In this document: positions 12,027 to 63,312 of the stretch, one piece after another
Numbering within the stretch: the stretch's first letter is position 1
How the letters are laid out: each line of letters opens with the position of its first letter
Notes under the pieces: model-generated
Told to the model about the DNA's origin: nothing
Seen by the model: only the letters and a program-made list of their open reading frames with translations
Database searches by the model: none
Made by a program: the position numbers and the translations under genes
Assembly (NCBI GenBank): GCA_017994175.1
Contig: JAGOLH010000005.1
Coordinates: 1 to 64,000 of the forward strand
Source of the DNA: Bacteroidales bacterium
Lineage (GTDB): Bacteria > Bacteroidota > Bacteroidia > Bacteroidales > ML635J-15
DNA: 64,000 nucleotides
Reading direction: 5' to 3'

Positions 12027-13688
12027 TTAAAACTGAAAATAGATAAACGCCTGCATGTCGGAACATATCGATTGATACACTACAAAAACCACCAATGTGC
12101 AGACAACTGCCTGAGCCCAGTGTGGCATGCCAATGAATCTGTCGCGCCATTTATCCTTGAATTTATAGCTCAGCCAATGGGTAACAAAACCAAACAACAT
12201 GATTAGCCATACTTTATAGTATGCAGCCATTACCTGAAAGAAAACCGAACCGTTGAATGAATACCAGATACGTTTTAGCATAGTTTCGGCAGTTGTATAA
12301 TCGGGGGCCCTGAAAAATACGCGTGTAAAAGTGATGAAGGTGAATGTAAGAGCAATCTTCCATACGGTTGCAATCCAGTGGTTTGTGTGCTCCCATGGAC
12401 TTATTTTACGCCAGTACTTGTACACCAGTACTCCCAAACCATTAAGTCCGCCCCATATCATAAAATTCCAGCTTGAACCATGCCATAAACCCCCTAATAA
12501 CATGGTGATCATTAGGTTAAGATTGGTTTGTATTTGCTTTCGTGCTTTTACCGAGAAACGCATTAATAAAAGAACTACTATTGTGAATGCAATCAGAATA
12601 ATAGTAACCCATGTATTTGCTGCTAGTAGCACAAATACTGCAATTATAAGCGCAAAATTTATGTAGGTTCCCGGGCTAGCACTACGGTTACCGCCCAGCG
12701 GTATATACAGGTAATCTTTCAGCCACGACGAAAGCGACATGTGCCAGCGCGACCAGAAATCGCTGCAGTTTTTTGCCTTGTAGGGGGAATTAAAGTTTTG
12801 GGGCAATCGGAAGCCCATCAACAATGCAACACCGATAGCAATGTCGGTATAGCCCGAAAAATCGACGTACACCTGCAGCGAATATCCAATCATTGCCAGT
12901 GCGCTTTCAAGGCCGGAATACATGTCGGGATTCGCAAAAATCCGGTCAACAAAATTCACGGCGATGTAGTCGCCAATCATGATTTTTTTTATCAGACCTT
13001 TTAGAATTAAAAACAAAGCCATACCGAATTCATACCGGTTGAGCCTGAATTTTTCATAAATCTGTGGTACAAATTCCGATGCTCTAACTATTGGTCCTGC
13101 AACAAGTTGCGGAAAGAACGATACATAAAATCCGAAGTCAATGATGTTTTTCACCGGGGCAAGTTTCCTTCGGAAGATGTCAACTGTGTAAGATATGGTT
13201 TGAAAGGTGAAAAAAGAAATCCCTACTGGGAGGAATATTTTAGACGTGTCGAAATGAGAGCCCGTTAACAAGTTCGAAAATTCAGCGAGGTAGTTATATG
13301 CCGTAAAATGAGTCCCAAACATCTGGTTTGCAGCTTCAACAATGAAATATGCATACTTGAAGTAGGCGAGCACACCCAGATTGACAACAATACTCAGTGC
13401 CAACAGCCATTTTCGCTTTTTGTTGTCGTTCGATTTATATACCCACTTGCCAATGTAGTAGTCTACTACTGTGCTGAATATCAGCAAGAAGAAAAAGAAT
13501 CCGCTTGATTTATAATAGAAAAACAGACTGAAAATAAGCAGATATAATGATCGCGCAGTATTTTTCTTTGCAAGAAAACTATATCCGAGCAAAACCACGG
13601 CAAAAAATCCCCAGAAGAAAAAGCGGGTAAAAATCAGTGGAGCATTCTGATCGTAAACAAAAATATCCCAGATATTACTTATGCTCAT
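12027..13688 (-). CDS. MBOAT-family membrane O-acyltransferase (AlgI/DltB-like)
   Basis: A 553-aa polytopic membrane protein with about ten to twelve hydrophobic segments. The MBOAT signature is present: FNSPYKAKNCSDFWSRWHMSLSSWL near residues 300-325, then LLGGLWHGSSWNFMIWGGLNG near 400, which holds the conserved catalytic His. Family members move acyl (usually acetyl) groups across the membrane onto polysaccharides, peptidoglycan or teichoic acids. It is the last gene of a four-gene operon, 1 bp after the SGNH gene upstream. SGNH proteins commonly complete the transfer in AlgI/AlgX- or PatA/PatB-type systems, so an O-acetylation machine is likely. The acceptor cannot be read from the sequence. 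Confidence 0.92.
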   Translation of the reverse strand: MSISNIWDIFVYDQNAPLIFTRFFFWGFFAVVLLGYSFLAKKNTARSLYLLIFSLFFYYKSSGFFFFLLIFSTVVDYYIGKWVYKSNDNKKRKWLLALSIVVNLGVLAYFKYAYFIVEAANQMFGTHFTAYNYLAEFSNLLTGSHFDTSKIFLPVGISFFTFQTISYTVDIFRRKLAPVKNIIDFGFYVSFFPQLVAGPIVRASEFVPQIYEKFRLNRYEFGMALFLILKGLIKKIMIGDYIAVNFVDRIFANPDMYSGLESALAMIGYSLQVYVDFSGYTDIAIGVALLMGFRLPQNFNSPYKAKNCSDFWSRWHMSLSSWLKDYLYIPLGGNRSASPGTYINFALIIAVFVLLAANTWVTIILIAFTIVVLLLMRFSVKARKQIQTNLNLMITMLLGGLWHGSSWNFMIWGGLNGLGVLVYKYWRKISPWEHTNHWIATVWKIALTFTFITFTRVFFRAPDYTTAETMLKRIWYSFNGSVFFQVMAAYYKVWLIMLFGFVTHWLSYKFKDKWRDRFIGMPHWAQAVVCTLVVFVVYQSICSDMQAFIYFQF

Positions 13689-13689
13689 A

Positions 13690-14946
13690 TTATTGCTGAT
13701 TTAAAGCATTTCTGATAATATATTGTTCAAAATCTTTTTGTATGGCTTCGAAGAAAAGCCGGGCAAGAATGGTATACCCTTCCTGTGTAAAATGTATTCT
13801 GTCGCGCTGTGCAAGTCCATCCTGCTTCCATAAATTAATTGACCTGTTGCCCCCCATTGCCGCGTGAAAGTCCCATACCGAGGCTCCGAATTCTGCAGCA
13901 ACCTGGTTCATTGCTTGCAGCACTTCTCCTGCGTGTTCGTTGTGTGAACCACGGTAATAATAAAAATCGGAATTGGTGGTAAGGATTATCGCTGCTGCCG
14001 GACAAACTTCTCTTACCATGGAAAGCAGAACCCAATAATTGTCGGCATACCTGTCTCCGGTAAAGTTCTTACCTGAAGCATCATTCACTCCAATCGAAAA
14101 AACAATCAGGTCGGGATCAATACAACACAGCTGCTGCTGTAAACGGCCGGCTTTGAAGTAAGAAATGGTGCTTGCTCCATTTATACCAATACCTGAGTAG
14201 TGAATGCCATTAGTCATTTTTTCGAGGTAGGCTCCGTAAAAATACAAGGTATCGTCGCCTGAATCCGTTTTTTGAAAAAGCAGATTCAGTGAATCACACT
14301 CTCTATTCAGGTAAAAAACTGTAGCACCTGAAACTGAATCGAATGTGGAATAATTAACTGCGGATTCGGGAATCAATGACACGGAGTAGGTACCTTTTAT
14401 GTCGCTGTGGAAAACACTTACTTTATCGAAGCTGTGTTTGTATATGTCGGCAGTCTTATTGAATTGAATTCCAATTTCTGCAATGCTGTCGCTGCAGATG
14501 GCAGTAATCCCTCCAACACCTATTGGGCACGAAACATTTTGATCGGTGATTTTTGCAATTTCCCAGTTCCCTTCATATGACGAACGGTAATAGTAAGGGT
14601 GATTGGTTTTTGCAATACTGAATGGGAACACGTATCCCGGACCTCCTTCGATGCATCTGCTCATGTTTTCAAAATTGCATCGTATTTGCCATGGCCAAAT
14701 TCCTGCCTGAATATGCGATGCCCCGAAGTGCACGATGTGCAAATTTCCGCTTCCTTCGAAAATAAGCCGGTCGAGTTTTTCGTAGAAACAGTTTATGGTA
14801 CTACTATCACCATAGGTGCGGAATAGTACAGAATCGCTTTCAATATATCCGAAGGTATAGTTTCGGTATGGAATTCTGCTTGTCTGCCCTGATGCACCAT
14901 ATATCACTGATGTGCAAATGACAAATGAAAGGATTATGTTTTTCAT
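13690..14946 (-). CDS. Secreted SGNH/GDSL-type hydrolase or acyltransferase
   Basis: A signal peptide (MKNIILSFVICTSVIYGASG) precedes a 390-residue domain with SGNH blocks: block I HFGASHIQ (the nucleophile Ser is kept while the usual Asp of GDS is Ala), block III SIGVNDASG and the C-terminal D-x-x-H pair in DRIHFTQEG. It also contains a long inserted beta-rich region between blocks I and III, as in carbohydrate-acting members of the family. It should act in the periplasm. Its start overlaps the end of the preceding SGNH gene by 4 bp (ATGA). In the operon with an MBOAT protein it is a candidate acetyl-acceptor/transfer partner, or an esterase that reverses the reaction. Confidence 0.85.
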   Translation of the reverse strand: MKNIILSFVICTSVIYGASGQTSRIPYRNYTFGYIESDSVLFRTYGDSSTINCFYEKLDRLIFEGSGNLHIVHFGASHIQAGIWPWQIRCNFENMSRCIEGGPGYVFPFSIAKTNHPYYYRSSYEGNWEIAKITDQNVSCPIGVGGITAICSDSIAEIGIQFNKTADIYKHSFDKVSVFHSDIKGTYSVSLIPESAVNYSTFDSVSGATVFYLNRECDSLNLLFQKTDSGDDTLYFYGAYLEKMTNGIHYSGIGINGASTISYFKAGRLQQQLCCIDPDLIVFSIGVNDASGKNFTGDRYADNYWVLLSMVREVCPAAAIILTTNSDFYYYRGSHNEHAGEVLQAMNQVAAEFGASVWDFHAAMGGNRSINLWKQDGLAQRDRIHFTQEGYTILARLFFEAIQKDFEQYIIRNALNQQ

Positions 14947-16394
14947 TTGGGTGCTTTTATCCTTTCATTATACTCGGAATATTCCAATATCAACGAATTG
15001 TAAAACATATTCGCAACTACAACCGTACCTTGTGGTGTGAAATGGGTATAATCGGCACCTGCCAATGGCGGATTGGCATTTACCCACGATATCATGGAGT
15101 TTTTACCTCCCATAGCTTCGTACATATCCCAGTACACACCTCCAGCTTTCAATGTTGCTGCCTTAAGTTCGTTTCTTACGGTTTCGAGAATAGGGTAGGT
15201 GGTGTAGTAATCTTTTTCTTTGTACGACATATCGGATGGCCCTATTACGATTATGCAGGCATCGGGAACCAATCTTTTAAGAAAAAGGAGCTGAGAGTAA
15301 AAATAGCTTGCATGTAAGGCGGCATTTTTAGCATCTTTAATATAGGGCATCACATTTCCCCCGAATTGCAGTATAAACAAATCAACGTCAAGACGGGTAA
15401 ACATTTGCGAAAGCAAGGAGCCGTCGGTAGTAGTAAATACGGTTCCGCTGCTGCCACGCAAAGCGATGTTGTCGATATACACCCCCTTGTCGTCTTCAAA
15501 TGAAATTGCATAAAAATCGGGGCTGTCGTTTCCTTCAAATTCAAACCTGATGTTTTCGAGATATGTTGAACTTTTATATTCAAATACTGTCATCCCTTCT
15601 CCTGCTTTCAGCGAGTCGGTAACAAGCACTGTTTCGCCACTGATGATGCTTATTTTTACCCGCGCTTTAGCATTCCCGTAGTAAATTGACACATTTTTAA
15701 ACTTCTTTGTGTTTGAATAAGCCAGATCCGATTTTGTAAAACTGAGCCATGCTTTATATTTGGTTTCAGGAAGGGTCGCACCGGAGTCGACAATTGGTGC
15801 AAACCGACTAAAGGCTATCATAGCACCATATTTTTTATGTTTTACCAGAGGGTTGATCATAACAAAACCCGGGTATCTTGTCCAGTTTGAAGAGTTTTCC
15901 TGAATGATACTAAATTGGGAGTAAACCACACCGGCAGTTGAAAGCCCCATGCCCAGACCGCCGAAGCGCGATTGGAGTTTGTTTCTTAAAAATGCAGTAA
16001 TCCTATCGCCTTCAATCTGACTGTCGCCGTAATGCATTACTCTTATTCTTCCATCTTCGTCAGGGTTGTTAAGCTTGGCAAAAAACGGGTCGAGAGCATG
16101 TGGATTGTTTTGCGGAAATTCAAGAGGAGTAATTAGCTTTTTCAATTCTTCAATATCAAGAGGAGATAGACTGTCGTCGACCTTCATTCCTAAGGAATCG
16201 ATGTTGAATTGCTTAGAGAGCAGCGAATCAATATCAAGTCTTGCGTCTTTTTTTGAAAACATCTCCGAAAATGAAGGGAAATACAATACCAAATTATTCG
16301 TTAACCGAATACCACTGCGTGGAAAAATTGCCATGATGATTCCGAGCATACCTATTACAACTGCAACAAACAACAACACCTGCCTGGGCTTCAT
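14943..16394 (-). CDS. Membrane-anchored SGNH hydrolase-like protein
   Basis: Residues 7-25 form a single N-terminal membrane segment (VLLFVAVVIGMLGIIMAIF); the rest faces the periplasm. Block I is MHYGDSQIEGDR with Gly-Asp-Ser intact. Block III is degenerate (LQFGGNVMPY, no Asp after Asn). The C-terminal catalytic pair is kept in ADYTHFTPQG. It is 483 aa, longer than simple esterases, with a beta-rich insert after block I. It is paralogous in layout to the next gene and is joined to both neighbours by 4-bp ATGA overlaps. A role in transfer of acetyl groups delivered by the MBOAT protein is inferred. Confidence 0.82.
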   Translation of the reverse strand: MKPRQVLLFVAVVIGMLGIIMAIFPRSGIRLTNNLVLYFPSFSEMFSKKDARLDIDSLLSKQFNIDSLGMKVDDSLSPLDIEELKKLITPLEFPQNNPHALDPFFAKLNNPDEDGRIRVMHYGDSQIEGDRITAFLRNKLQSRFGGLGMGLSTAGVVYSQFSIIQENSSNWTRYPGFVMINPLVKHKKYGAMIAFSRFAPIVDSGATLPETKYKAWLSFTKSDLAYSNTKKFKNVSIYYGNAKARVKISIISGETVLVTDSLKAGEGMTVFEYKSSTYLENIRFEFEGNDSPDFYAISFEDDKGVYIDNIALRGSSGTVFTTTDGSLLSQMFTRLDVDLFILQFGGNVMPYIKDAKNAALHASYFYSQLLFLKRLVPDACIIVIGPSDMSYKEKDYYTTYPILETVRNELKAATLKAGGVYWDMYEAMGGKNSMISWVNANPPLAGADYTHFTPQGTVVVANMFYNSLILEYSEYNERIKAPK

Positions 16395-17818
16395 TTCTTT
16401 TTATAAATTTTAAGTGTTTGACCAATTTGGATTTTTTCGGGGTTAGTAATATTATTCCATTGCATAATGTCTTCAGCCGAGACTCCCGGATACTTCTTTG
16501 CGATTTCGTAGAGATAATCCCCTTTTTGAACAACATAATTTTCCTGAAAAACAAGATTCTTCATGTCCGGTGTTTTGGGTGTATTGTTCTGTTTGGGAGC
16601 AGTAGGAGTGTTGGTTTTGGCAACTGTCTTCTTTTTGAAGATAATAATCTTCTTACCTGCATAAATTGTGGTTCCCGAAATATCGTTCCAGTCTTTTATA
16701 TCGTTAATGCTCACATGAAATTTCTCAGCAATATATCCTAAATTGTCGCCGGATTCAATAATATACTCAATTTTTTCGTAATCGCTGCTGTTATACTCTG
16801 GAGTTTTGTGTGTAGCATAATTACCATCCGGAATCTTAGGCTTTGGAAAGAAAACACTATCCCTGAAAATGGCAATGGAATCTTGCTTTTCAACAAACAG
16901 CTTTGCATAAAACGAGGGTAAAATTAAAAGTACAGGTTTCAGGTCACCATAAATAACATCGCAAATAATGTGCGGGTTTAAAGCTTTTATACTGTCGGTA
17001 CTGATATGTAATACTGCTTCTAACTGACCGGTATGAATTTTTTTCTGAACTGTTACTGAATCGAGAACCTCAGGAAGAAATCCATAGTGAATTTTTTGTA
17101 CCTGATTTAAATGACTGTTGCACCATAAAATAGAAGCGATAAAAACATTGAACACTGCTTTGTCGTTTTCGTGCATAAAGCCGGAATTCTCATCGATTAT
17201 TTTATTTACATACGCCGGACTTGAGGTATATGCCAAAATAGCAAGATCCCATCTCCCAAACAATTCATGTAAGGTGTTTAGATATGTTACAGCTGCTTTC
17301 GTGCTCAACGAAATATCAAACCTGTCGTCGCGGCATGAGTCGGCAAACAGCCCATATCGCAATGCAGGAAAATATTGAAGTTTCCAGATGCCGGCTGTTT
17401 CATCAGCTCCGGCAAACAAGTGGTTCATACCGGTCAAGGCAATGGGAAGACAGGCAAAGTCGCTGCTTATTACTCCGGAATTACTCAGGGGACTTATTAG
17501 TTTGGTCAGGAAATAATACTGAGAGAGTATCTTACATTTGTCCTTGTCGGGGAGTTCACACAAGTGGTTGTAAGCATATTTTACATCGTCACTTATCGCA
17601 TAGGTTTCGCCGGCAATCATTATGGCCCCGGGGAATTCATTCAACCGTGAATCGAAAGATATTCCTATGCAGTTGCATTTCAATACCTTATTATCGCTTT
17701 GGCTCACGTTACGGCTGACCAAGTCGAAGTATTCAGAAGTGGTAAGCGTTTGAGAATGCAAACCTACTGATAATAAGATTGCTGTGTTTGAAAGAAATAT
17801 CTTTGCGCAAGTTTTCAT
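16391..17818 (-). CDS. LysM protein with degenerate lytic transglycosylase (MltD-like) domain
   Basis: Start at ATG 17818 gives a signal peptide (MKTCAKIFLSNTAILLSVGLHSQ). Residues 80-210 align with the SLT domain of MltD: LPIALTG (124-130), TAGIWKLQYFPALRYGL, DDRFDISLSTKAAVTYL and GRWDLAILAYTSSPAYV. The catalytic Glu of the usual LPIVES motif is Leu128 here, and AYNxGP has become AYTSSP, so muramidase activity is probably lost. Two LysM peptidoglycan-binding domains lie at the C-terminus (about 353-398 and 428-475), separated by a Thr/Pro/Lys linker. It is the first gene of the acylation operon and overlaps the next by 4 bp. A structural, wall-binding role is likely. Confidence 0.82.
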   Translation of the reverse strand: MKTCAKIFLSNTAILLSVGLHSQTLTTSEYFDLVSRNVSQSDNKVLKCNCIGISFDSRLNEFPGAIMIAGETYAISDDVKYAYNHLCELPDKDKCKILSQYYFLTKLISPLSNSGVISSDFACLPIALTGMNHLFAGADETAGIWKLQYFPALRYGLFADSCRDDRFDISLSTKAAVTYLNTLHELFGRWDLAILAYTSSPAYVNKIIDENSGFMHENDKAVFNVFIASILWCNSHLNQVQKIHYGFLPEVLDSVTVQKKIHTGQLEAVLHISTDSIKALNPHIICDVIYGDLKPVLLILPSFYAKLFVEKQDSIAIFRDSVFFPKPKIPDGNYATHKTPEYNSSDYEKIEYIIESGDNLGYIAEKFHVSINDIKDWNDISGTTIYAGKKIIIFKKKTVAKTNTPTAPKQNNTPKTPDMKNLVFQENYVVQKGDYLYEIAKKYPGVSAEDIMQWNNITNPEKIQIGQTLKIYKKK

Positions 17819-45350: not shown

Positions 45351-46268
45351 TTAAAAGAAACTTCTTCCTCTTTTAATGGGTTCACCAACATTAACTCCAA
45401 ATACAATTTCTTGTGATCCGATAGTATAGTTCGAGAGGTCGCTGAAGGTAAAGTCATAGGAGTACCCAAGATAATACCTGTTTATCTTCAGGCCGATTGC
45501 AGCAATAAAAGCGTCGTTCGGGCGAATCGACATCCCAAACCAATAATCATCGTTATAGTAAAGTTTTACGTTAAAGTCAAGCTGAATTGGTGTAACTTCT
45601 GTCATTTTCATCATCAATGCAGGTTCAATTTTAAATGAGGGTGCACTTTGGAAATCGAATTTATATCCTCCCATGATATAATAGTGCCGAACCATCGTGT
45701 TATCGTCCAGATTTCTGTTAATCTTTAATTTCGACTGAAACAAATGTGCAGCTGTGATACCTGCATAGTATTTTTTTCCATAAAAATACACGCCGAATGT
45801 TGCATCCGGAACAATAGTGCGTTCGATCATATAGGTAATGGATGGATCATCATAGATTGTCAATTGAAAAAACCGCTGGTCCATCTTATACTGAAATGCA
45901 ATCGCTGCTAACCCAAGTGCAACTCTATTTAACCTGTTAAAAGCAAAATGGTAGGAATATACCGCCTGAATACCTGTATGACTTACCGGCCCAAAACTGT
46001 CATTAAAAATGAAACCTCCAATACCGACAGTTTTATTCTGAAGTAAAGTGTGCCCGCTAATCGACTGTGTAGATGGAGAGTCGTTGATACCAACCCACTG
46101 TTTGTGAACACTCAGTCGTACCGGTGAATATTTTTCGCTGCCTGCAACAGCAGGGTTTATCACAAAATTGTTCAGGAAGTATTGGCTGTAAAGCGGTAAC
46201 TGCTGAGCAAATCCGGCAATGGGAAGTAAAATAACTGTAAATACAACTCCTAGTAGAAATCTTTTCAT
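45351..46268 (-). CDS. PorP/SprF family outer-membrane protein (1)
   Basis: I start at ATG 46268 (signal peptide MKRFLLGVVFTVILLPIAGFAQ), 9 bp inside a TTG frame. The family pattern is clear: QQLPLYSQYFLNNFVINPAVAGSEKYSPVRLSVHKQWVGINDSPSTQSISGHTLL, then GIGGFIFNDSFGPVSHTG and, near the end, FGMSIRPNDAFIAAIGL and YDFTFSDLSNY. PorP/SprF proteins are barrels that help T9SS type B cargo reach and stay on the cell surface. It is the last of the three in this locus and about 230 bp behind the second. Confidence 0.93.
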   Translation of the reverse strand: MKRFLLGVVFTVILLPIAGFAQQLPLYSQYFLNNFVINPAVAGSEKYSPVRLSVHKQWVGINDSPSTQSISGHTLLQNKTVGIGGFIFNDSFGPVSHTGIQAVYSYHFAFNRLNRVALGLAAIAFQYKMDQRFFQLTIYDDPSITYMIERTIVPDATFGVYFYGKKYYAGITAAHLFQSKLKINRNLDDNTMVRHYYIMGGYKFDFQSAPSFKIEPALMMKMTEVTPIQLDFNVKLYYNDDYWFGMSIRPNDAFIAAIGLKINRYYLGYSYDFTFSDLSNYTIGSQEIVFGVNVGEPIKRGRSFF

Positions 46269-46495
46269 AAATTTCAAATTAAAATGCTATTAGAGGCTAT
46301 AAAATCTCATAATCCCAAATATAAACAAAATTTGTTCATAATAAACAAATTATTAACGATTAAAAGTTTCAAACCTAATAAAAATTTTTTATCGATGTAC
46401 GGAAATACCCTTATTTACTTAACAATCAGATAAAAAAGAGATTGTTACAAATAGTGTTAAGTGATGAAGAAAAACCGGTATAGCATCTTGAAATG

Positions 46496-47416
46496 TTAAT
46501 AAAATCTGGAGCTCTTGTAGCTCTTATCCCCAATATTCCATCCAAAAGTTAACTCTTCAGAGCCGATTGTGAAATTGGAGAGTTCCGAAAAAGTAAAATC
46601 ATGCGAAAAAGCAAAATAATATCCTTTATAATTCATGCCAATCATAAAAATAAATGAATCTCCGGGTCGAATCGACATGCCAGCCCAATAGTCTTCATTG
46701 TATATCATTCTTATGTTAAGGTCAATTTGTATTGGGGTAGTTTCTGTGAATTTGATTAGGGAAGATGGCTCAATCTGAAGGCTTTTTGCTGAAGGGAAAG
46801 AAAAACGGTAACCGCCATTTAGAAAATAGTGCCTTACCATTTTATTTGATTTTTCATCCATATAAGTACTCGTAATTTTTAAATTTGATTGAAAAATATG
46901 AGCAACCGATAATCCAGCCCACCATTTTTTTGAATACGCATAAGCACCAAGATTCCCATCGGGAACAAGAATGCTCATACGGTTTCGGAGGAGAACCGGT
47001 TCAAAGGAATGAAAATCTTCCTGATCGAGGCTTATAATATATTGCATTAATATGGCTGACACCCCAAATGCTACTTTAATGCCTCTTGTTGCTCTTAAAT
47101 GGTAAGCATAGGTAAATTGAGATCCAATAGTTCGCACCGGGCCAAAGCTATCGTGAAAAATCATGCCACCAATACCCATTTCTTTGTTTGATAGCAAATG
47201 GTGGCAACTAATTACCTGTGTTGATGGGGTTTGGTCGATGCCAACCCATTGCCTGTGTATTGAGAGCCTCAGAGGAGAATAATCCTTATTACTGCCCGCC
47301 GCTGCAGGGTTAATCACATAGTTATTATTAAAGTACATTGAATACAGGGCTAATTGCTGAGAATAAGAATTCGTTGCAAAAACCAGTATTGTTATTATTA
47401 TTAAAATCTTTTTCAT
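46496..47416 (-). CDS. PorP/SprF family outer-membrane protein (2)
   Basis: ATG 47416 gives a signal peptide (MKKILIIITILVFATNSYSQ). The same family marks are seen: LYSMYFNNNYVINPAAAGSNKDYSPLRLSIHRQWVGIDQTPSTQVISCHHLL, GIGGMIFHDSFGPVRTIG, and SHDFTFSELSNFTIGSEELTFGWNIG near the end. It is closely related to protein (1), suggesting local duplication. Its start lies 19 bp behind the stop of the 3448-aa adhesin, so they are likely translated from one transcript; it is the best candidate partner for that cargo. Confidence 0.94.
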   Translation of the reverse strand: MKKILIIITILVFATNSYSQQLALYSMYFNNNYVINPAAAGSNKDYSPLRLSIHRQWVGIDQTPSTQVISCHHLLSNKEMGIGGMIFHDSFGPVRTIGSQFTYAYHLRATRGIKVAFGVSAILMQYIISLDQEDFHSFEPVLLRNRMSILVPDGNLGAYAYSKKWWAGLSVAHIFQSNLKITSTYMDEKSNKMVRHYFLNGGYRFSFPSAKSLQIEPSSLIKFTETTPIQIDLNIRMIYNEDYWAGMSIRPGDSFIFMIGMNYKGYYFAFSHDFTFSELSNFTIGSEELTFGWNIGDKSYKSSRFY

Positions 47417-47434
47417 ACGCCTTATCAAAATTTC

Positions 47435-50400
47435 TTACCTGATAATGGTAACAGTCCCTGTAATAGGATCTGTGTTATTGTTCAGGTCGATGTAATATAA
47501 ATATGGGCCAGTAGGTACCGGTGCCCCATTGTAAGTTCCATCCCAGTATTCGTCGTTATACCCTGCTTCATACAGCAATTGCCCCCAGCGATTGTAAACC
47601 TGAATCAGAATTCTTGGAAACATCTCAACATGAGTAATTTCCCATGTATCGTTGGAACCATCACTATTTGGTGAGAATGCAGCAGGAATTTGGAGACAGT
47701 CAATTTCGCTGTCGTTAAGTACTACCAGCAATGCATCACCTACATTGTGGCAATTGTTGTTATCTACCACATCAATACGGTAAACTCCTGCTGGAATGCT
47801 GTCGATAAGAATTACTTCCTGTTCCCAGTTAATTGAGCCACTGGAGATGAAAACATGGTAAGGCGGTGTTCCTCCTGTTATCTCTTCTAGTAAAATATAC
47901 CCATCGGTATTGCCATAACAAGAGGGTCCTCCAGATGCTGCAATATCAATATAAATAGGTGATGGCTCGGTGATCAATGTTGAGGTACTGTAAACACAAT
48001 TGTTGTTATCGGTTACAGTAAGGTAATACATCCCCGGAATTAGGTTATTCCCGGTAAATGATGTGCCGATAGTACTACCGTTTGGAGCTTCCCAAATATA
48101 GGAATACGGGGCTGTGCCGCCGGTACCCAATGCTCCTGCTTGCCCATCATTGCTGTTGTTACATGTGCTGTTCTGCGAAATCACAACTGCTGAGAGAGCT
48201 GAATCAGGTTCATGTATCATTACTGATGCCAGAATAGTACATGAATTATTATCGGTAATCTGTAGGGTGTATGTTCCTGCGGATAATCCCGAAACATTGT
48301 TCGATGTGTTTCCGCTATGCATCCAGAAATAGGTGTAGCCGGGTGTTCCCTGGCTAACAATTGCCCTGGCAGTTCCAGTAGAACCGAATTTACATAATAC
48401 GTCAGTAGTCACAAAATCTACAACCATTTGTTGAGGTTGGTTGACCTGAATCTCGTCAGTACCTGTACAGCCCCATGAATCGGTAACAGTAACAGTATAT
48501 GTTCCAACCGGCAAGTTTTCAACAATCTGAGTCGTATAATTCCCTTCCGACCAAATGTACTCTATAGGTTGGTGCCCATTGCTGACAGCAGATAATACTG
48601 CAGTTGCATCGCCATAGCATCTGATTTGAAATAGCTGAGAAATGGTTACACCTATTGAACCGCTGATTTCGACGGTTGCATCATCAATTAAGGTGCACCC
48701 ATTGAAATCAGTAATGGTAACCTGGTACTCTCCGCCAGCAATGTTGTTAATGTAATATCCTGTGGCCGAATTACTCCATAAATATTGATAAGGCGGTGTG
48801 CCACCGTTTACAGTAACCTGTGCTGAACCCATGTGATCACTACAGTCAACATCTGTGGTTGCCATCTCAGAACTTAGCTGAGGTGGGTTTACAAGCTCAA
48901 TCTCGGCTTCAGCATGGCAATTATGGTTATCGCTTATGGTAACAGTATAATGTCCGGCCGGAAGATTGAACAATGTGTCAGAATCAATACTGCTTACACT
49001 CCATTCAAAGTTGTATGGGCTGGTTCCGCCAGTGACAGTTGCCCAAATTTTTCCATCTGATGATCCAAAACACTTCGGATTCGTACGGGAAAGATTTGCT
49101 ATCAGATTATCGGGCTGAATTACCTGAATTGAGTCAATCGTTGTACAATTATGACTGTCAATAACCTGAACATAAAACTTTCCGGCTGTAAGGTTCATCA
49201 CCACTAGTCCGGTACCTATCTGTGAACCCATAGAATTATTCCAGGTAACATTGTAATTGGGAGTTCCACCACCAATCGAAATTGCTGCTGAGCCATTCTC
49301 ATCGCCAAAACAGTTTAACGAAATTGTATCAATCAGGTTGGTTGTAAGCAAAGCCGGTTCTGTAAGTAAAATTGAATCTTCGAGGATGCAATTATTCTCA
49401 TCAGAAACAGTAATATAATGCCATCCGGCAGCTAGTTGATTATAAGAAGTGTTTGTAGTAGGGATTCCATTGTTATCATAAATATAGCTGTAATCGCCTG
49501 TACCTCCGGTAACATTTACTGAGAATGCTCCACTGTTGTCGTTGAAACAGCTTAAATTTAGAACATTGATAAACTCTGATTGCAGGGCTGTGGGCTCCGA
49601 AAGTAAAGATGAGAAATTATAGGAGCAATTTCTTGAATCTGCAATTGTAATATTCAAGTTTCCGGCTCTCAAATTATGAATATTGAAAGTGTTAGTAATT
49701 ACTCCGCTTTCGGAATATGTATTACCTCCATTAATCCAATTAATCTGGTATGGAGGGGTCCCGCCCGACAAAGTAATTGTACCTGCTCCGTTATCAAAAC
49801 CATTGCAGCTAATTTGATCTGTTTGGCTAAACGTGCCAGAAAGGGCATCTGCCGGTTGACCTACAGTATAATTTGCTGAGAATGTGCACATACTTCCATC
49901 GGTAATAGTAACAGCATAAGTTCCGGCTAACAGATTAAAAGCTGAGTTTGTGGTTGAAACAGGAGGATCCCATGAATAGATATAGCCCCCGGAGCCACCA
50001 TTGGCGGTAAGGACAATGCTCCCATTGTTTTCGCCAAAGCAAACCACGCTATCAATGTCGGCAATTAATGCCAAATCATCGGGAATGGTTATTGTGAAAT
50101 TAAATAATGAAGAGTTACAATTATTTGAGTCATGCACCGAAACACTGTAATCACCTGCGTTGGCGCTTGTAAGAACCGAACCTGTGAAGGCTAAAGTATT
50201 ACCATCAAGAATCCACGTATAAGAATACGGAGGGGTTCCCCCTTCTGCAAATATTTCTGCGGTACCGGACCCATCATCATACGGGCAAATAATATTAGAA
50301 ACATCAACATCATCAATGATTAAATCATCAGGTTGGGTGATGGTATAAGTTTGAGTGAAGGTGCATCCGTGTTGATCGGTAATTTCAACAACATAACTGC

Positions 50401-53400
50401 CTGCTGCGATTTCGTTCAGCTCACTCGAAGTACTGAGAACTGTTGGGTTCCCCAGTTCATGCCAGATGAACTGGTACGGAGTGGTTCCTCCTGTTACCAA
50501 TATAACCACAGAGCCGTCTGTTAAACCATTACAACTGACATTTGTAACTGTAGCCCCTGATATTAGAAGTTCTTCAGGTTCTGTTATAATAATCATTGCA
50601 GTTGCCGTAAACAGATTTGCATCAGTTACAGTAATATAGTATGTATCTGCAGGTAAATTTGAAATACTTGAACCGGACCCAATATTGCTTCCGGAGCTAT
50701 TTTGCCATTGATACGTATAAGGTAGTATACCCCCGCTAACAACAGCTGTTGCTGAACCGGTTGAATTGTTATGGCAGTCCGCATCTGTGGAATTAATGCT
50801 GACATTGAGTTGCTCAGGCTCAGTAACAGAAACACAATCGGTTGCTGTGCAGCCGTGTGAATCAGAAACTGTAACACAATACGTGCCGGCAGTGAGATTA
50901 ATTGCAGGATTACTCGTTGAAACAATTACTCCGGGATTTGCAGAATTCTCCCAGGAATATGAATAAGGAGGTGTTCCTCCACTTACAGCGGCGTTTGCTG
51001 AACCATCATCAGAGCCAAAGCCTGTAGTTGGTGTTGCAGTAAGACTTGTATTCAGTGCAGAAGGCTCTGTCAGGACTTGAGACACTTCTGCCGTACAACC
51101 ATGAGAGTCGATTGCAGTAACAGTGTAGGTGCCTGCACTAAGATTTTGCGGATTGTCTCCATGATAGGAGCTGATAGGATCATCCCAGTTATATGTTGAA
51201 ACAGGGCTTGTACCTCCTGAAACCGAAACCTGGAGGCTTCCATCTGCTGACCCAAAACATAAAGGATTGTTGAATAATGAAATCTGAGCTGTAAATTCGT
51301 CAGGCTGAATGATTAACATGCTTGTATCAATAGCAGGGCAATTATTTGCATCAATTATGGTAACAAAATAACTGCCTTCCTGCAGATTGCTAACGGTGCT
51401 ATTGTTAATACCCAAATCGTTCCCGGATTCGTCTTCCCAATGATAACTGTATGGGATATTGCCACCGGAAACACTTACTGCAACCACTCCGTCGCTATCT
51501 CCATAGCAGTTCAAATTATCACCTGAAGCGCTGGTAATTATCATTTCAGCGGGCTGCGATATGGTAATCTCAGTACTCCATGTGTATCCCATTGAATCAG
51601 TAATGGTTAGATAGTAATTCCCAGCAGGTAGGTCTGTTGCTGATGGTCCGGTAGAAATAGTAACCCCGGACAAGTTTTCCCAGTGATAGGCGTAGTCTGG
51701 GGTGCCCCCAAACGCAGTTATATTCACATTTCCATCTGACAGACCATAGCAACTGACATTGTTTTGCGATTGAAGTACCCCTATGAGTTGATCAGGTGGT
51801 TGACTAACCGTAACACAACCAGTTGAAGAACAAGATTGATTATCGGTAACAGTTACACAATAATCACCTGCTGCTAATCCTGTAATGGTAGCAGTAGTTC
51901 CAACGATTACACCCGGGTTAGCAGAATTTTCCCAGGAATAATTGTAAGGTGGAGTTCCTCCAGTAACTGCAACAGAAGCCTGTCCGTCGATATTTCCATA
52001 GGTAGATGCATCGGTGTGACTTAATGAAAGATTAATTGAGCCGGGTTCTGTTATTGTGACAGAACTTGCACCTGTGCATGAGTGAGAGTCGGTTACAGTA
52101 ATAAAATATGTGCCGGCAACAAGATTTGATATCGTTGAGTTTGTACCAATTACAGTTAATGATTCGTTCTGCCATTCATACGTATATCCAGGTACCCCGC
52201 CTCCTGGAATTACTTCTGCGCTTCCGTTATTATTCCCATAACATAATACGTTGGATTGGTTAATTGTTGCCGTCACCGCAGTAGGTTCTGTAATAGAAAA
52301 ACTTGTATTTGCAGTGCATCCGTTTGAGTCGGTTACAGTTAGTTGATAATCTCCCGCAGTAAGGTCGGTTATTGTATGATTACCTGAATTAAGACCGCTG
52401 AGACTCCCTGATGTGATTCCATTTGAATATTCAATAATATAAGTGGGTGTCCCACCGGAGACGGTAACTTCTGCTACTCCATCATCTTCTGAGAAACAGG
52501 ATACAGCTGACTGCATAGACCCTGAAATAGTCAGGGCAATGGGCTCATTTATTGTATTATTTGTCGAAAATGTGCAGGAGTTGATGTCAGTAATACTGAT
52601 AGAATAAATTCCTGCTGTAACATCGTTAATTGTATGTGGACCTGCAGCAACATCATTTAATGAGCCTGAGCTAATTCCATTCGACCAATTGATATCGAAG
52701 AGAGGAGTTCCCCCGGTAACCGTTATCTCGATACTACCATCGTCAGAACTGTTACACGATGGTTCATTTGTTACCACAAAATTTAATCCGAGCATCTGTG
52801 GTTGAGTTATAACCATTGAGGTAGTCTGAGTACAACCTGAGTCGTCAGTAACCGTAATGGTGTATGTGCCCGCATTCAGGTTCGAAATGATATGCGGACC
52901 TCCATTTACGTTTGTCAGGTTATCGGAAACACTCCCGTTGCTCCATGAAATATCATAATTAGGAACGCCTCCAGTTACCGAGATCGTAGCTTCTCCATCG
53001 GAATTTCCGTAGCAAGTAATTGCTTGATTAAGTGCATAAGTAATGCCAATTGCAGTTGGTTGGGTTATTGTTAAGGTAGTTGTACTAACACAATTATCCT
53101 GATCGGTCACTTGAATACTATATGTGCCGGCCGTTAGGTTTGTTAATATAAATGTGCCTACGTTTACGTTATTGATAAATCCTGACGAACTACCGTTAGT
53201 CCATGTAATATTATATGGTGGATTTCCACCGGAAACTGTCAGCTGACCGGTGCCATTGCTCCCTCCATAGCAGGATACCGGAACAATTTGAACTGCATTT
53301 GATGTTATGTCAACTGGAGACGAGACAATCACCGACCCAGAGATGGAACACCCACTTTGATCAGTTGTCGTAACCGTATAGAAACCTGCAGGAAGGTTCT

Positions 53401-56400
53401 CTGCAATACCATCTGAGCTGTTATCGCCATTGCTCCATTCATAAGTGTATGGACCAACGGCTCCTCCGGCTGTAGCTGTTGCAATTCCATTGGCAGAACC
53501 ACAAGTTGCCTGAGCAGTTTCAACAACATTAATTGTCGGTAACGAATTAATCGACACGCTTACATTTCCGGTGTTTGAGCAACCATTACTGTCGGTGACA
53601 GTAACATTATAGGTAGTGTTTGCAACAGGATTAACCGTATGCGAGTTACCTGATCCAAGCCCGTTATCCCATGCATAGGTATAAGGTGAAGTACCTCCTG
53701 ATGCGGAAGCGTTTAGGTTGACAGGTTCATTGGCGCATTGCGGATTAGGTAATGCAGTAACGGTAACCGTAGGTAACTGGTTAACAACCACACTGACCGA
53801 GCTGCTGGCAGAACAACCATTGTCGTCAGTTACAGTAACATTATAGGTAGTGTTTGCAGCCGGGTTGACCGTGTGATTTTGTCCTGCACCCAGTCCGTTG
53901 TCCCATGCGTAAGTATAAGGAGCAGTACCACCGGAAGCATTGGCAGTAAGGTCGACAGGTTCGTTAGCGCACTGTGGGTTAGGTGTGGCAGAAGCGGTAA
54001 CCGTAGGTAACAGGTTTACCACTACATTTACCAATGCAGTTGCTGAGCAGCCATTGCTATCGGTAACAGTAACATTGTAAGTTGTGTTTGTTGTTGGATT
54101 TACCGTATGGTTCTGCCCGGCACCGATGCCATTATCCCACAAATAGGAGTAAGGTGCAGTACCACCGGAAGCATTGGCAGTAAGATCGACAGGTTCGTTG
54201 GCACATTGCGGGTTTGGCGCAGCAGATGCTGTAACAGCCGGGAGTTGATTAACAATTACGTCAACACTTCCGGTGTTTGAGCAACCGTTACTATCGGTAA
54301 CAGTAACATTATAGGTAGTATTAGCAACAGGATTAACGGTATGCGAATCGGCTGCACCCAGTCCGTTGTCCCATGCGTAAGTATAAGGAGCAGTACCTCC
54401 CGAAACATTTGCAGTCAAATCGACAGGCAGGTTGGCGCATTGCGGATTAGGTAATGCAGTAACGGTAACCGTAGGTAACTGGTTAACAACCACACTGACC
54501 GAGCTGCTGGCAGAACAACCATTGTCGTCAGTTACAGTAACATTATAGGTAGTGTTTGCAGCCGGGTTGACCGTGTGATTTTGTCCTGCACCCAGTCCGT
54601 TGTCCCATGCGTAAGTATAAGGAGCAGTGCCACCGGAAGCATTGGCAGTAAGGTCGACAGGTTCGTTAGCGCACTGTGGGTTAGGTGTGGCAGAAGCGGT
54701 AACTGTAGGTAGTTCGTTTATTGAAACATTAACCAATGCTGTACCAGAACAACCATAAGTATCGGTTACAGAAACATTGTAAGTTGTATTCGATGTTGGA
54801 TTTACTGTATGGTTTTGTCCTACGCCGAGGCCATTGTCCCATGTATAAGTATATGGTGCTGTGCCGCCGGAAGCATTGGCAGTAAGGTCGACAGGTTCGT
54901 TTCCACATTGCGGGTTGGGATCAGCAGATGCAGTAACGGTTGGTAAAGCCCGAACAGTAACTGTGACATTATTGGATCGCGTACATCCATGTGCATCAGT
55001 TACAATAACAGTATACGTAGTGTTGACTGAAGGAGTTACAGTGTGTGATTGCCCTGCCCCTAAACCGCTACCCCAGAAATACGTATAAGGTCCAAGTCCT
55101 CCGTTACCATTAGCATTTAACACAACAGGTTCATTAGCGCATTGTGGATTGGGATTAGCTGTTGCTGTTACTGTCGGTAACTGATAAATAGTGACTGTTT
55201 GTGTTGCGGTTGCCGAACAGTTATTTGCATCTCTAACTGTAACAGTATATGTAGTTGTAACTGTAGGAGTTACTACATGAGTTTGACCTGCTCCAACCCC
55301 TCCGCTCCATGTGTAGGTATAGGGTCCGGTACCTCCGGCACCATTTGCTGTAATGGTTACAGGTTGGTTTCTGCATTGTGGGTTAGGTAATGCTGAGGTT
55401 GTAACTGTTGGCTTTTCAAAAACTGTAATTGTTGATTCATTCGAAATAGCGGGATCGCAGCCTAAGCCATCGCAGCTATAAATACACCTGTATCTTCTAT
55501 TTGAAAAGGGTGTTAATCCATCCACAGTTAATGTACTTGAATTGGTCCCGACATCAACCCATGAAGCACCGTCATAATACTGCCACTGGTAAGTACAGGT
55601 TCCAGCACCACTTGTTGCAGTAGCTGTTAAAGTTATAGGATTGTTCTGACAAACGGAGCTGTTTGATGCGGTAATACTTACCGTAGGATCAACTACCTGA
55701 GAAACAGTAACAATTGGTCCATCAGGAATTGAGCATCCATTTCCAAGAGGAACAAAAACAGGTTGGTATTGCCAGTTACCAACTCCCGGGCTATCGGGAG
55801 ATGTTACAGTTACCCATGCGCCCCCTCCCGCTGGTCTGCGCTGCCATGTAAGAGTGCCACCTACGCCGTTTATTACGTTGGCACTCAAAGTAAAACTGCC
55901 ACCATCGCAAATGGATGTTGGTGTTACGCTTACTGTGCCCCACTGAGGCGTCTCGTTAACATTAATGGAAAGTTGGTTTGAAAGAGCAATATCGCATGCC
56001 ACCCCAGTGCAAGTATACTGACAACGATACAAACGGTTGCTGAAGGTAGTAGTAGTAGGAACATTATAGGTTGCACTATTACTTCCTACGTTGCTCCATG
56101 TTGTACCTCCGTCATCAGAAAACTGCCACTGATAGCTGCAAGTGCCTGATCCCCCCACGATATCGGAGTTTAATATAATTGATCCCCCAACACATGCATC
56201 GTTGCCGGATGCGGAAATAATATTGATAGCTGGATCATAAACGTTAATGGTTATCGGGCCAGCCCAATCCTGACAATTCAATCCGGATTGCACAAGAACA
56301 AGGTAATAATAGGTTCCTTCAGTTGGGGGACATGGTGGGTCATAGCTGTTAGCTGTTTGTCCTCCAATATTAACATACCCCAAAGGTGGAATGGAACAAA

Positions 56401-57781: not shown

Positions 57782-57954
57782 CGTTTCAATTTTTAATATA
57801 TTAACTATAAATATAGCCAGTATTTCATGTTAAATCACTATTAAAATATTAACATATTGTTGACAATACAAAATATTTTACTTATCATAAAATCTACAAC
57901 ATAACACACACACACACACAATACAATCTATATACGCGCACAACTAAAGCAATA
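57782..57954. other. Intergenic region with an AC microsatellite
   Basis: The gap between the giant adhesin and the third PorP/SprF gene contains eight AC dinucleotides (57904-57920). It is otherwise AT-rich with no hairpin seen. Slippage here could alter expression of the 10-kb gene, but that is speculation. Confidence 0.5.
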
Positions 57955-58875
57955 CTAAAAACTCGGCATTGAGCCTTTGTCCTGTTCCGGATTTTTCAAA
58001 TACAATGCCAATGTAATTTCATGAGCCCCACTCGATACGTTTTTCAATGTCGATATCACCATATCGTATGAATACGAAACTAAAAACTGTTTAAATCTGT
58101 ACCCAGCCTGCAAAACCACTGCATCGCCATAAGAAAATAACAATGAAAGTGAAATTTTGTTTTGGTACAGATAGTTGATTCCCAAATCAAATTTGAATGG
58201 AGTATCTCCGGTGAAATACAAATTTGTATGAGGAGTCAACAAGTGCTCTTCGTATCCGGGGCGTAAATAAACTCCACCATGAATAAAATAATGTCTTGCA
58301 GAAACTATACTACCAAAAGTCTCACCGGTTTCATAGAATCTGAACTTCGATTTAAGCACCTGTTGAATGCCAAATCCGGTATAAAATTTATCGGAGAAGA
58401 AAAGAACTCCAATATTTGCATCAGGTTTCCATGCTGCATCGTTAATATTTTGAAGAACAGAATTGTCATTTTGCTCATGAATGGTCATCAAGTCACCGCG
58501 GACTCTGTAATTTACAACGGTCCATGCCAATCCGAAAGAAATATTACATACTTCCGTCTTCAGAAGGTAGGCATAATTCAAATTCAGAAACAACCTTCGG
58601 GTTGTGCCGGTTAAATCATTCGATACAATAAGGCCTGCTGCCATATCATCTCTAAAGGAGTATTTCCCTGCAAGGGTAGTAGTAATTGGAGCTCCTGAAA
58701 AGCCAACCCACTGGCTTCTATGATTTAGGAAGATATCCGGGGTTCCAAACTTATTTATATTGGCAGGGTTTAAAAACATTGCGTTAAAATCCTGGTAGCG
58801 GAATTGAGGTAATTGTTGTGCATTTATCAATCCTGAAACCGTAATAAGAAATAGTATTATATAAAATCTTCTCAT
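57955..58875 (-). CDS. PorP/SprF family outer-membrane protein (3)
   Basis: A 306-aa barrel with a signal peptide (MRRFYIILFLITVSGLINAQ). Marks: QLPQFRYQDFNAMFLNPANINKFGTPDIFLNHRSQWVGFSGAPITTTLAGKYSF, GLIVSNDLTGTTRR, DANIGVLFFSDKFYTGFGI. It is more diverged from proteins (1) and (2) than they are from each other. It follows the 1301-aa adhesin by 5 bp and is its likely partner. The distance to the giant adhesin is 173 bp. Confidence 0.92.
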   Translation of the reverse strand: MRRFYIILFLITVSGLINAQQLPQFRYQDFNAMFLNPANINKFGTPDIFLNHRSQWVGFSGAPITTTLAGKYSFRDDMAAGLIVSNDLTGTTRRLFLNLNYAYLLKTEVCNISFGLAWTVVNYRVRGDLMTIHEQNDNSVLQNINDAAWKPDANIGVLFFSDKFYTGFGIQQVLKSKFRFYETGETFGSIVSARHYFIHGGVYLRPGYEEHLLTPHTNLYFTGDTPFKFDLGINYLYQNKISLSLLFSYGDAVVLQAGYRFKQFLVSYSYDMVISTLKNVSSGAHEITLALYLKNPEQDKGSMPSF

Positions 58876-58880
58876 GGCGA

Positions 58881-62786: not shown

Positions 62787-62796
62787 AAATAACAAT

Positions 62797-63312
62797 TTAT
62801 TGAACCGATAGTAACGCTGCTTCCAATGCCGGTAGCAATAATTTCTTAAGCTCCTGGGGGTAGTTGGCATTTACCCAGATTGTATTACTGCTCCCCGTAA
62901 AAAGCATGATTCTTTCATATACAACGTCCTTAGTGTTGAACTGAACAACAAACCATGCTGCACGCTCTCCTGTTTTTGTTTGTACAACTTTCTTTTCGAT
63001 TAATTTGTATCCTTGCGAAGAGATATATTCGTCAGTCATTGCACTTTCGATAGTTTGGTGCGACACTCCGGGTATTTCAATTACCTGAATTGTACAGGCA
63101 GATCCGGGGTGGGCAAAACCATGAATATTTTCATCAGGAATAAAGTATTCCGGAGGTATCATTTTTACCGAAGTATTAGGAACCTGCAATAGTTTAGCTG
63201 TGTCGTACACCATGTTCGCCTGCTTCTCTTCAACAAAACTTGTTAGTGTTTGCGAAAACGAAACACTCCAAACTATAATAAAGCTTACAAATGTTAACAA
63301 AATCTTTGACAT
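62797..63312 (-). CDS. Small secreted protein, DUF1795/PsbP-like (171 aa)
   Basis: A signal peptide (MSKILLTFVSFIIVWSVSFSQ) precedes a 150-residue domain whose order of strands and helix, with GYKLIEKKVVQTKTGERAAWFVVQFNTKDVVYERIMLFTGSSNTIWVNANYP, resembles the PsbP/DcrB (DUF1795) fold. The resemblance is structural in flavour and tentative. It is the first gene of the minus-strand adhesin locus and ends 10 bp before the 1301-aa adhesin, so it is probably co-expressed. Function unknown. Confidence 0.6.
   Translation of the reverse strand: MSKILLTFVSFIIVWSVSFSQTLTSFVEEKQANMVYDTAKLLQVPNTSVKMIPPEYFIPDENIHGFAHPGSACTIQVIEIPGVSHQTIESAMTDEYISSQGYKLIEKKVVQTKTGERAAWFVVQFNTKDVVYERIMLFTGSSNTIWVNANYPQELKKLLLPALEAALLSVQ

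Follow-up and report, generated by a model that had tools for sequence, protein, structure and literature searches.

The subject of this work is a four-gene operon on the minus strand of a 64,000-nucleotide stretch of DNA (the window) from a Bacteroidales bacterium (contig JAGOLH010000005.1 of GCA_017994175.1; source contig C108 of a genome of 3.17 Mb that is 95% complete). Between positions 12027 and 17818, a LysM-bearing relative of the lytic transglycosylases (LTs) is followed by two SGNH-family proteins, SGNH2 and SGNH1, and by an MBOAT acyltransferase (Table 1). An earlier note, made from the letters of the window, had described four genes that touch or overlap by 4 bp. This is the layout seen: the LysM and SGNH2 genes overlap by 4 bp (16391-16394), as do those of SGNH2 and SGNH1 (14943-14946), while one base separates the stop of SGNH1, ending at 13690, from the MBOAT ATG at 13688. 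Because the LemA-family gene upstream ends 172 bp away and the pyruvate phosphate dikinase gene downstream, also on the minus strand, starts at a distance of 151 bp, the four genes form one unit, and the operon is real. No polysaccharide genes adjoin it within the window. The nearest named loci belong to metagenome-assembled genomes of Bacteroidales/Marinilabiliales, with 61-64% identity in SGNH2.

Conservation was followed in two sets of loci. The first holds 78 loci around SGNH relatives in other genomes of the order, and its gene counts are lower bounds because contig ends cut several of the stretches. All four genes are found at 21/78 of these, SGNH2, SGNH1 and MBOAT without the LysM gene at 25/78, SGNH2 and MBOAT without SGNH1 at 11/78 (5 of them with the LysM gene), and other subsets at the remaining 21/78. 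The second, named set also holds 78 loci (80 found, minus L156 and L190, which are identical to first-set loci); it was ranked by likeness to the SGNH2 of the window and is therefore biased towards the window type, with all four genes at 35/78 and the triad without LysM at 27/78. In the first and named sets, respectively, the totals are 59/78 and 65/78 for MBOAT, 55/78 and 67/78 for SGNH1, and 32/78 and 44/78 for LysM. Absence of the LysM protein or of one SGNH gene from most loci, which the earlier note took as speaking against its proposal, is thus about half borne out: SGNH1 is present at most loci of both sets, and LysM at a minority of the first and a majority of the second. In one record that bears the title of a gammaproteobacterium (L216; Glaciecola amylolytica CP034120.1), SGNH2, SGNH1 and MBOAT occur without LysM, and the SGNH2 is 36% identical to that of the window; this cluster is possibly a lateral transfer.

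Domains and catalytic residues of the four proteins

Judged by its sequence, the MBOAT (PF03062, 5e-23) carries both marks of a PatA. His403 is kept in 59/59 aligned homologues, and the C-terminus, AFIYFQF, forms an FXYXXF motif whose Tyr is kept in 58/58; most homologues in both locus sets also end in FIYFQF. FXYXXF is the acyl shuttle of PatA and DltX, and in Campylobacter PatA its Tyr is acetylated, the acetylated peptide serving PatB as donor (PMC12148441). In Zymomonas mobilis, deletion of a patA homologue abolished O-acetylation (PMC13101528).

SGNH1 matches PF13472 at 2e-16, and SGNH2 at 1.6e-5, under the Pfam cut-off. Catalysis in SGNH enzymes uses a block-I Ser and a block-V Asp and His, with a Gly and an Asn forming the oxyanion hole (PMC12148441). 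The motifs that the earlier note read from the two proteins (GASH, GDSQ, GVND, GGNV) are present as stated, but its claim that the two domains differ in integrity does not hold: both keep Ser, Asn and the Asp and His of the DxxH motif (DYTH, DRIH), and almost every relative keeps them too. In the first set, SGNH2 relatives (n=77) keep Ser in 77, Gly in 73, Asn in 77, Asp in 76 and His in 77, and SGNH1 relatives (n=56) keep them in 56, 54, 55, 56 and 55; in the named set, Ser, Asn, Asp and His are kept in 78/78 each for SGNH2 and in 66-67/67 for SGNH1. A loss of integrity through the missing Asp of GASH or GGNV is rejected, as neither the Asp of GDSx nor the one that follows the block-III Asn belongs to the catalytic triad. 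Nor is the block-I Asp constant in SGNH1 (Asp 33, Gly 18, Ala 4, Pro 1; n=56).

For both SGNH proteins, the closest solved structures by sequence are the Ape1 esterases of Neisseria and Campylobacter, and both are Ape1 relatives rather than PatB relatives. SGNH1, whose family assignment is by sequence, matches 4k3u (Ape1) at a profile value of 9.5e-46, and the phmmer score to solved Ape1 is 67 bits for SGNH1 versus 36 bits for SGNH2. The residue after the block-III Asn is Asp or Glu in SGNH1 (54/56 and 67/67 in the two sets) and never so in SGNH2 (0/77 and 0/78); the two Ape1 enzymes have Glu/Asp there, as SGNH1 does. From its N-terminus, SGNH1 would be secreted through a cleavable signal. The structure model of SGNH2 (48 sequences, mean predicted local distance difference test score, pLDDT, 91.3) consists of an N-terminal helix (residues 3-23), a beta-rich insert and an SGNH core, and superposes on 4k3u with Z 38.9 and a root-mean-square deviation of 2.6 over 343 aligned residues. 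Against Ape1 structures, the Z scores are 38.9, 35.5 and 34.8, versus 13.8-14.2 against PatB, which falls amid many other SGNH enzymes. Descent of SGNH2 from PatB is rejected on this difference (34.8-38.9 versus about 14). SGNH2 is predicted to be membrane-anchored by the helix. An FPxxGI-like stretch after this anchor occurs in only 38/78 proteins of the named set and is not used as evidence, and the hydrophobic-wall residues of PatB do not separate SGNH1 from SGNH2, the residue before the catalytic His being Thr/Ile/Val in SGNH2 and Val/Ile/Leu in SGNH1.

The first protein of the operon carries LysM (7e-30) and SLT (3e-6) domains and resembles MltD of Pseudomonas aeruginosa (8rhe/8rhf; Foldseek 2e-14, profile 1e-56; model mean pLDDT 86.2). 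Its Leu128 aligns to the catalytic Glu of the IES motif in 8rhe, which bears out the earlier description of a LysM pseudo-transglycosylase.

Table 1. Coordinates of the operon genes and of their domains, motifs and active-site codons in the window
Feature	Position	Strand	Basis or remark
Pseudo-lytic-transglycosylase (MltD-derived) with LysM repeats, 475 aa	16391..17818	-	first operon gene, ATG at 17818
SLT/MltD-like core, residues 118-213	17180..17467	-	Leu128 codon 17435-17437 at catalytic Glu position
LysM repeat, residues 352-395	16634..16765	-	domain search, model
LysM repeat, residues 428-471	16406..16537	-	domain search, model
SGNH2 (Ape1b-type), 483 aa	14943..16394	-	proposed membrane-anchored O-acetyltransferase
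SGNH2 hydrophobic helix, residues 3-23, putative membrane anchor	16326..16388	-	model; nearly invariant Pro25
SGNH2 catalytic Ser125	16020..16022	-	alignments of both locus sets
SGNH2 beta-rich insert, residues 163-300, between blocks I and II, like the CBM35-like domain of Ape1	15495..15908	-	model
SGNH2 Asn347; Asp448; His451	15354-15356; 15051-15053; 15042-15044	-	alignments
SGNH1 (Ape1c-type), 418 aa	13690..14946	-	proposed O-acetylpeptidoglycan esterase
SGNH1 catalytic Ser77	14716..14718	-	alignments of both locus sets
SGNH1 Asn288; Asp382; His385	14083-14085; 13801-13803; 13792-13794	-	alignments
PatA-type MBOAT acyltransferase, 553 aa	12027..13688	-	PF03062
MBOAT invariant His403	12480..12482	-	59/59 aligned
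Acyl-shuttle motif FIYFQF (FXYXXF), Tyr550, MBOAT C-terminus	12030..12047	-	motif defined in PMC12148441

Loss of SGNH1 and persistence of SGNH2

The presence of the two SGNH proteins was counted in a sample of 149 genomes. SGNH2 is present in 78, of which 65 have SGNH1 and 13 lack it, and SGNH1 occurs without SGNH2 in 2 genomes, one of them 82% complete. These counts (78, 65, 13 and 2) were read from E-value tables with cross-matches between the two families set aside: the 78 are 82 matched genomes minus G016, G071, G074 and G127, with partial SGNH2 in G136 and G137 included, and partial SGNH1 matches in G119, G059 and G020 were counted through their position beside SGNH2. A PatA-like MBOAT is found in 12 of the 13 genomes with SGNH2 and no SGNH1, the exception being G006. 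Where the locus holds only SGNH2 and MBOAT (11 genomes), a profile search turns up a genuine SGNH1 at another place in G027 only, the other 10 having none anywhere. On the SGNH2 tree, from which G137 is absent for want of a locus, the 12 rows without SGNH1 require at least 10 changes, 7 of them forced by supported branches, and loss of SGNH1 is therefore recurrent. The earlier suggestion that the two SGNH proteins divide the work is well supported.

Because the MBOAT must hand its acetyl to a periplasmic acceptor, and SGNH2 is the protein that stays, SGNH2 would be the transferase and SGNH1 a dispensable esterase. The predicted membrane anchor, as in PatB, points the same way. In combining a predicted N-terminal anchor with an MBOAT partner (59/78 and 65/78 loci), SGNH2 appears PatB-like. 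We lean slightly towards this assignment of the two roles.

A Glu-less lineage of LysM transglycosylases

With L156 and L190 again left out, here and in the overlap counts below, 96 LT relatives of the first operon protein were compared: 59 have the catalytic Glu, 33 carry a different residue there (Leu 17; Gly, Ile and Val 2 each; Lys, Ser, Cys, Tyr, Ala, Gln, Arg, Phe, Met and Thr 1 each) and 4 are unreadable. The 33 Glu-less relatives exclude a local oddity of the window. Equally rejected is the idea that every LysM protein at the locus is a pseudo-enzyme, as 59/96 keep the Glu, including 38 of the 69 readable LTs directly before SGNH2. On an LT tree built without the catalytic column and its two neighbours, and without two short LTs, the Glu/Glu-less label requires 2 changes, the second being L083, versus about 27 for shuffled labels (0/500 as low). 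The window protein groups with L144, L138, L139 and L120 (SH-aLRT 99); the tree has several long rows, and joins of two long rows may be false.

The Glu-less genes are also the ones most tightly bound to SGNH2: they overlap or abut its start in 22/31 cases versus 2/38 for Glu-bearing genes (Fisher p 1e-8; 3 LTs without a readable Glu column omitted), a p-value that is not a count of independent events because the Glu-less genes are largely one lineage. At L053, L055 and L083, Glu-bearing and Glu-less copies stand in tandem, with the Glu-less copy adjoining SGNH2. A Glu-bearing paralogue is encoded elsewhere in the genome of the window (L118), and likewise in G051 and G041. As a control, the best LysM-transglycosylase was taken from each of 60 genomes sampled from the 71 without SGNH2. 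The Glu is present in 58/60, with one sequence cut off and one Leu (L313); the L313 reading frame is broken, and it adjoins a gene that, by its motif, looks like an L,D-transpeptidase. Across the 22 aligned Glu-less LTs, Gly143, Trp145, Arg166 and a number of LysM residues never vary. In a near named relative, the pseudo-transglycosylase gene (L138:6502-8004) is split by one in-frame stop, which in a metagenome-assembled genome may be either error or decay.

A candidate peptidoglycan O-acetylation module

From the operon and the distribution of its genes, the complete triads of both SGNHs, the PatA marks of the MBOAT, the Ape1 fold predicted for SGNH2 and the loss of Glu, we infer the enzyme activities and the adaptor role of a Bacteroidota-type peptidoglycan O-acetylation system, with transferase, esterase and pseudo-enzyme adaptor, and this is likely the best explanation of the whole. 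The MBOAT, as PatA, would load acetyl from acetyl-CoA onto its own Tyr550 (FIYFQF) at the periplasmic face. SGNH2, tethered to the inner membrane by its N-terminal helix, would accept the acetyl on Ser125 and pass it to C6 of N-acetylmuramic acid (MurNAc), taking the place of PatB although its fold is that of the Ape1 esterase. SGNH1 would act in the periplasm as a soluble enzyme of Ape1 type and strip the acetyl groups so that lytic enzymes can act. The LysM protein, having lost the catalytic Glu and retained the fold and the wall-binding LysM repeats, would be coupled to SGNH2 in translation, keep one or both SGNH enzymes on the glycan strands and tune them without cutting. By analogy, a non-cutting LT fold that binds both glycan strands and an Ape1-type enzyme may be the end point of a relation like that of LtgA and Ape1.

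The four-gene set is very probably a peptidoglycan O-acetylation module, and the earlier proposal of this target is well supported, but clusters of this type were already described in 2005. Other MBOAT-SGNH pairs place acetyl on alginate, cellulose and secondary polymers (PMC12148441), and a target in another wall-bound or surface glycan is very improbable here: contig C51 of the same genome carries a second MBOAT, paired with an AlgX-like SGNH and next to genes that resemble glycosyltransferases and KdsB, while the window operon lacks polysaccharide neighbours, has an MltD-derived LysM protein as its first product and encodes SGNHs of Ape1 type. Within the module, the SGNH roles might be reversed, with transfer by SGNH1 and hydrolysis by SGNH2, or both proteins might be transferases (for MurNAc and N-acetylglucosamine), with no esterase encoded. 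Complete triads in both proteins, their common kinship to Ape1, the position of SGNH1 next to MBOAT and the case of G016, where SGNH1 lies near an MBOAT and no SGNH2 was found in the genome, would all fit such schemes, which are nevertheless unlikely: SGNH1 was lost some 10 times while SGNH2 and nearly always MBOAT remained, 10/11 genomes with an SGNH2-MBOAT locus have no SGNH1 at all, and it is SGNH1 that lies nearer the esterase Ape1 and keeps its Asn-Asp/Glu signature.

The LysM protein is probably a pseudo-enzyme adaptor, by analogy, and the wall-binding scaffold of the earlier note is plausible, the conserved Glu-less lineage supporting it. It might instead still be an enzyme, with another residue in place of the Glu, or a decaying, functionless transglycosylase; the Glu-less lineage has long branches and changes fast, and the L138 copy has an in-frame stop, all of which is in keeping with this. 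Yet 14 different residues fill the Glu position while Gly143, Trp145, Arg166 and LysM residues are invariant, full-length frames are kept across distant species, and active-type copies stand in tandem at L053, L055 and L083. A change of the Glu is thus tolerated while the protein is kept, and both alternatives together are quite unlikely.

Several observations weigh against parts of the favoured scheme of transferase, esterase and adaptor. SGNH2 has the fold of an esterase family, its block-II Gly314 is kept (Gly in 73/77 and 78/78), whereas in the solved PatBs this Gly is replaced (Ser161/Asn165; type I turn) (PMC12148441), published names call both SGNHs esterases (Ape) (PMC1199599), and G016 keeps SGNH1 without SGNH2. 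LysM is missing at 46/78 loci of the first set and 34/78 of the named set, and a LysM neighbour that keeps its Glu may be active, so that not every locus needs a dead adaptor. Loss of the Glu and tight overlap share one lineage, and their association does not consist of independent events, the Glu-less L313 (G017:C231) comes from a genome, 70% complete, in which SGNH2 was not detected, and in G081, a genome from the family of the window, SGNH2-SGNH1, the Glu-less LT and the MBOAT occupy separate places (L039, L120, L250).

Other MBOATs were seen in these genomes. The one on contig C51 (G000, L117:7136-9993; C-terminus FIYFRF) has an AlgX-like SGNH (PF16822) and lies in an apparent exopolysaccharide region, where gene names other than MBOAT and AlgX are judged from the sequences. 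In G056, G044 and G016 (its second MBOAT), a PatA-like MBOAT that lacks SGNH1 and SGNH2 partners occurs with a short, N-terminally anchored SGNH of about 270 aa and an alpha/beta-hydrolase-like gene nearby (L329, L331, L332), which is a different MBOAT-SGNH module; the short SGNH of L332, the only one searched, has no real PDB match and weak similarity to DUF459. The PatA-like MBOAT of G077 has no short-SGNH partner in the stretch read. Elsewhere in the window, 45351-62870 encodes two large SprB-repeat proteins (3448 and 1329 aa) with CHU_C type IX secretion signals, and there are three PorP/SprF genes (45351-46277, 46496-47428, 57955-58875).

The cluster type is known; what this analysis likely adds is the conserved Glu-less LT lineage and the SGNH loss pattern, which names SGNH2 as the likely transferase. 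No report of a pseudo-transglycosylase in O-acetylation was found in the open-licence full texts searched, and in the Glu-less lineage a wall enzyme would have become an adaptor of this process. A broader scenario, possible though rather doubtful, is an old Bacteroidota lineage of dead LTs dedicated to O-acetylation as glycan-reading adaptors and coupled in translation to an Ape1-fold protein turned membrane-tethered O-acetyltransferase. If it is true, the acetyl-transferring partners of PatA arose twice, once from the Ape1 esterase fold, and a reader that has lost its cutting activity sets where acetyl groups go.

Among known systems, the closest by description, as distinct from sequence, are the O-acetylation of peptidoglycan (OAP) clusters of Bacteroides thetaiotaomicron, B. 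fragilis and Porphyromonas gingivalis, laid out as ape1b-ape1c-pat (Weadge 2005; PMC1199599). These have the same families in the order SGNH2-SGNH1-MBOAT and share with the window an Ape1-type SGNH pair and the lack of Ape2, a protein since identified as the transferase PatB (PMC6174289). The 2005 paper lists no Ape2 in the Bacteroides clusters and does not mention LysM (PMC1199599), whereas the window operon includes a LysM protein. Peptidoglycan is O-acetylated to 69.4% in B. fragilis and 27.0% in B. thetaiotaomicron (PMC1199599), and a 2024 review gives 56-66% MurNAc O-acetylation in three Bacteroides species (PMC11382707). Gut Bacteroides thus have heavily O-acetylated, lysozyme-resistant peptidoglycan, yet the published cluster has no PatB, which raises the question of which protein transfers the acetyl; the gene-content patterns point to SGNH2 and make this question testable. 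With the PatA-PatB-Ape1 systems of Neisseria and Campylobacter, the window shares the PatA His, the C-terminal FXYXXF Tyr and an Ape1-type SGNH (PMC12148441, PMC6174289); it differs in a cluster that holds a pair of Ape1-type proteins and lacks PatB (no genome-wide search for PatB was made), in an SGNH2 that has a predicted membrane anchor and, unlike solved PatB, keeps the block-II Gly, and in the added pseudo-LT. The LtgA-Ape1 complex of Neisseria meningitidis likewise pairs an LT with an Ape1-type esterase: LtgA binds and stimulates Ape1 without a shared substrate, its catalytic mutant E481A has no morphological defect, and deletion of an LtgA helix leads to hyperacetylation of the wall (Williams 2020; PMC7083599). 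Binding in the window is proposed by analogy with this complex, and LtgA is active and Slt-like, whereas the window protein is of MltD type, without the catalytic Glu, and coupled through the operon. With P. aeruginosa MltD (8rhe/8rhf), the window protein shares the fold and the LysM repeats, and the two part at the active site, where MltD has its catalytic Glu and the window protein has Leu128.

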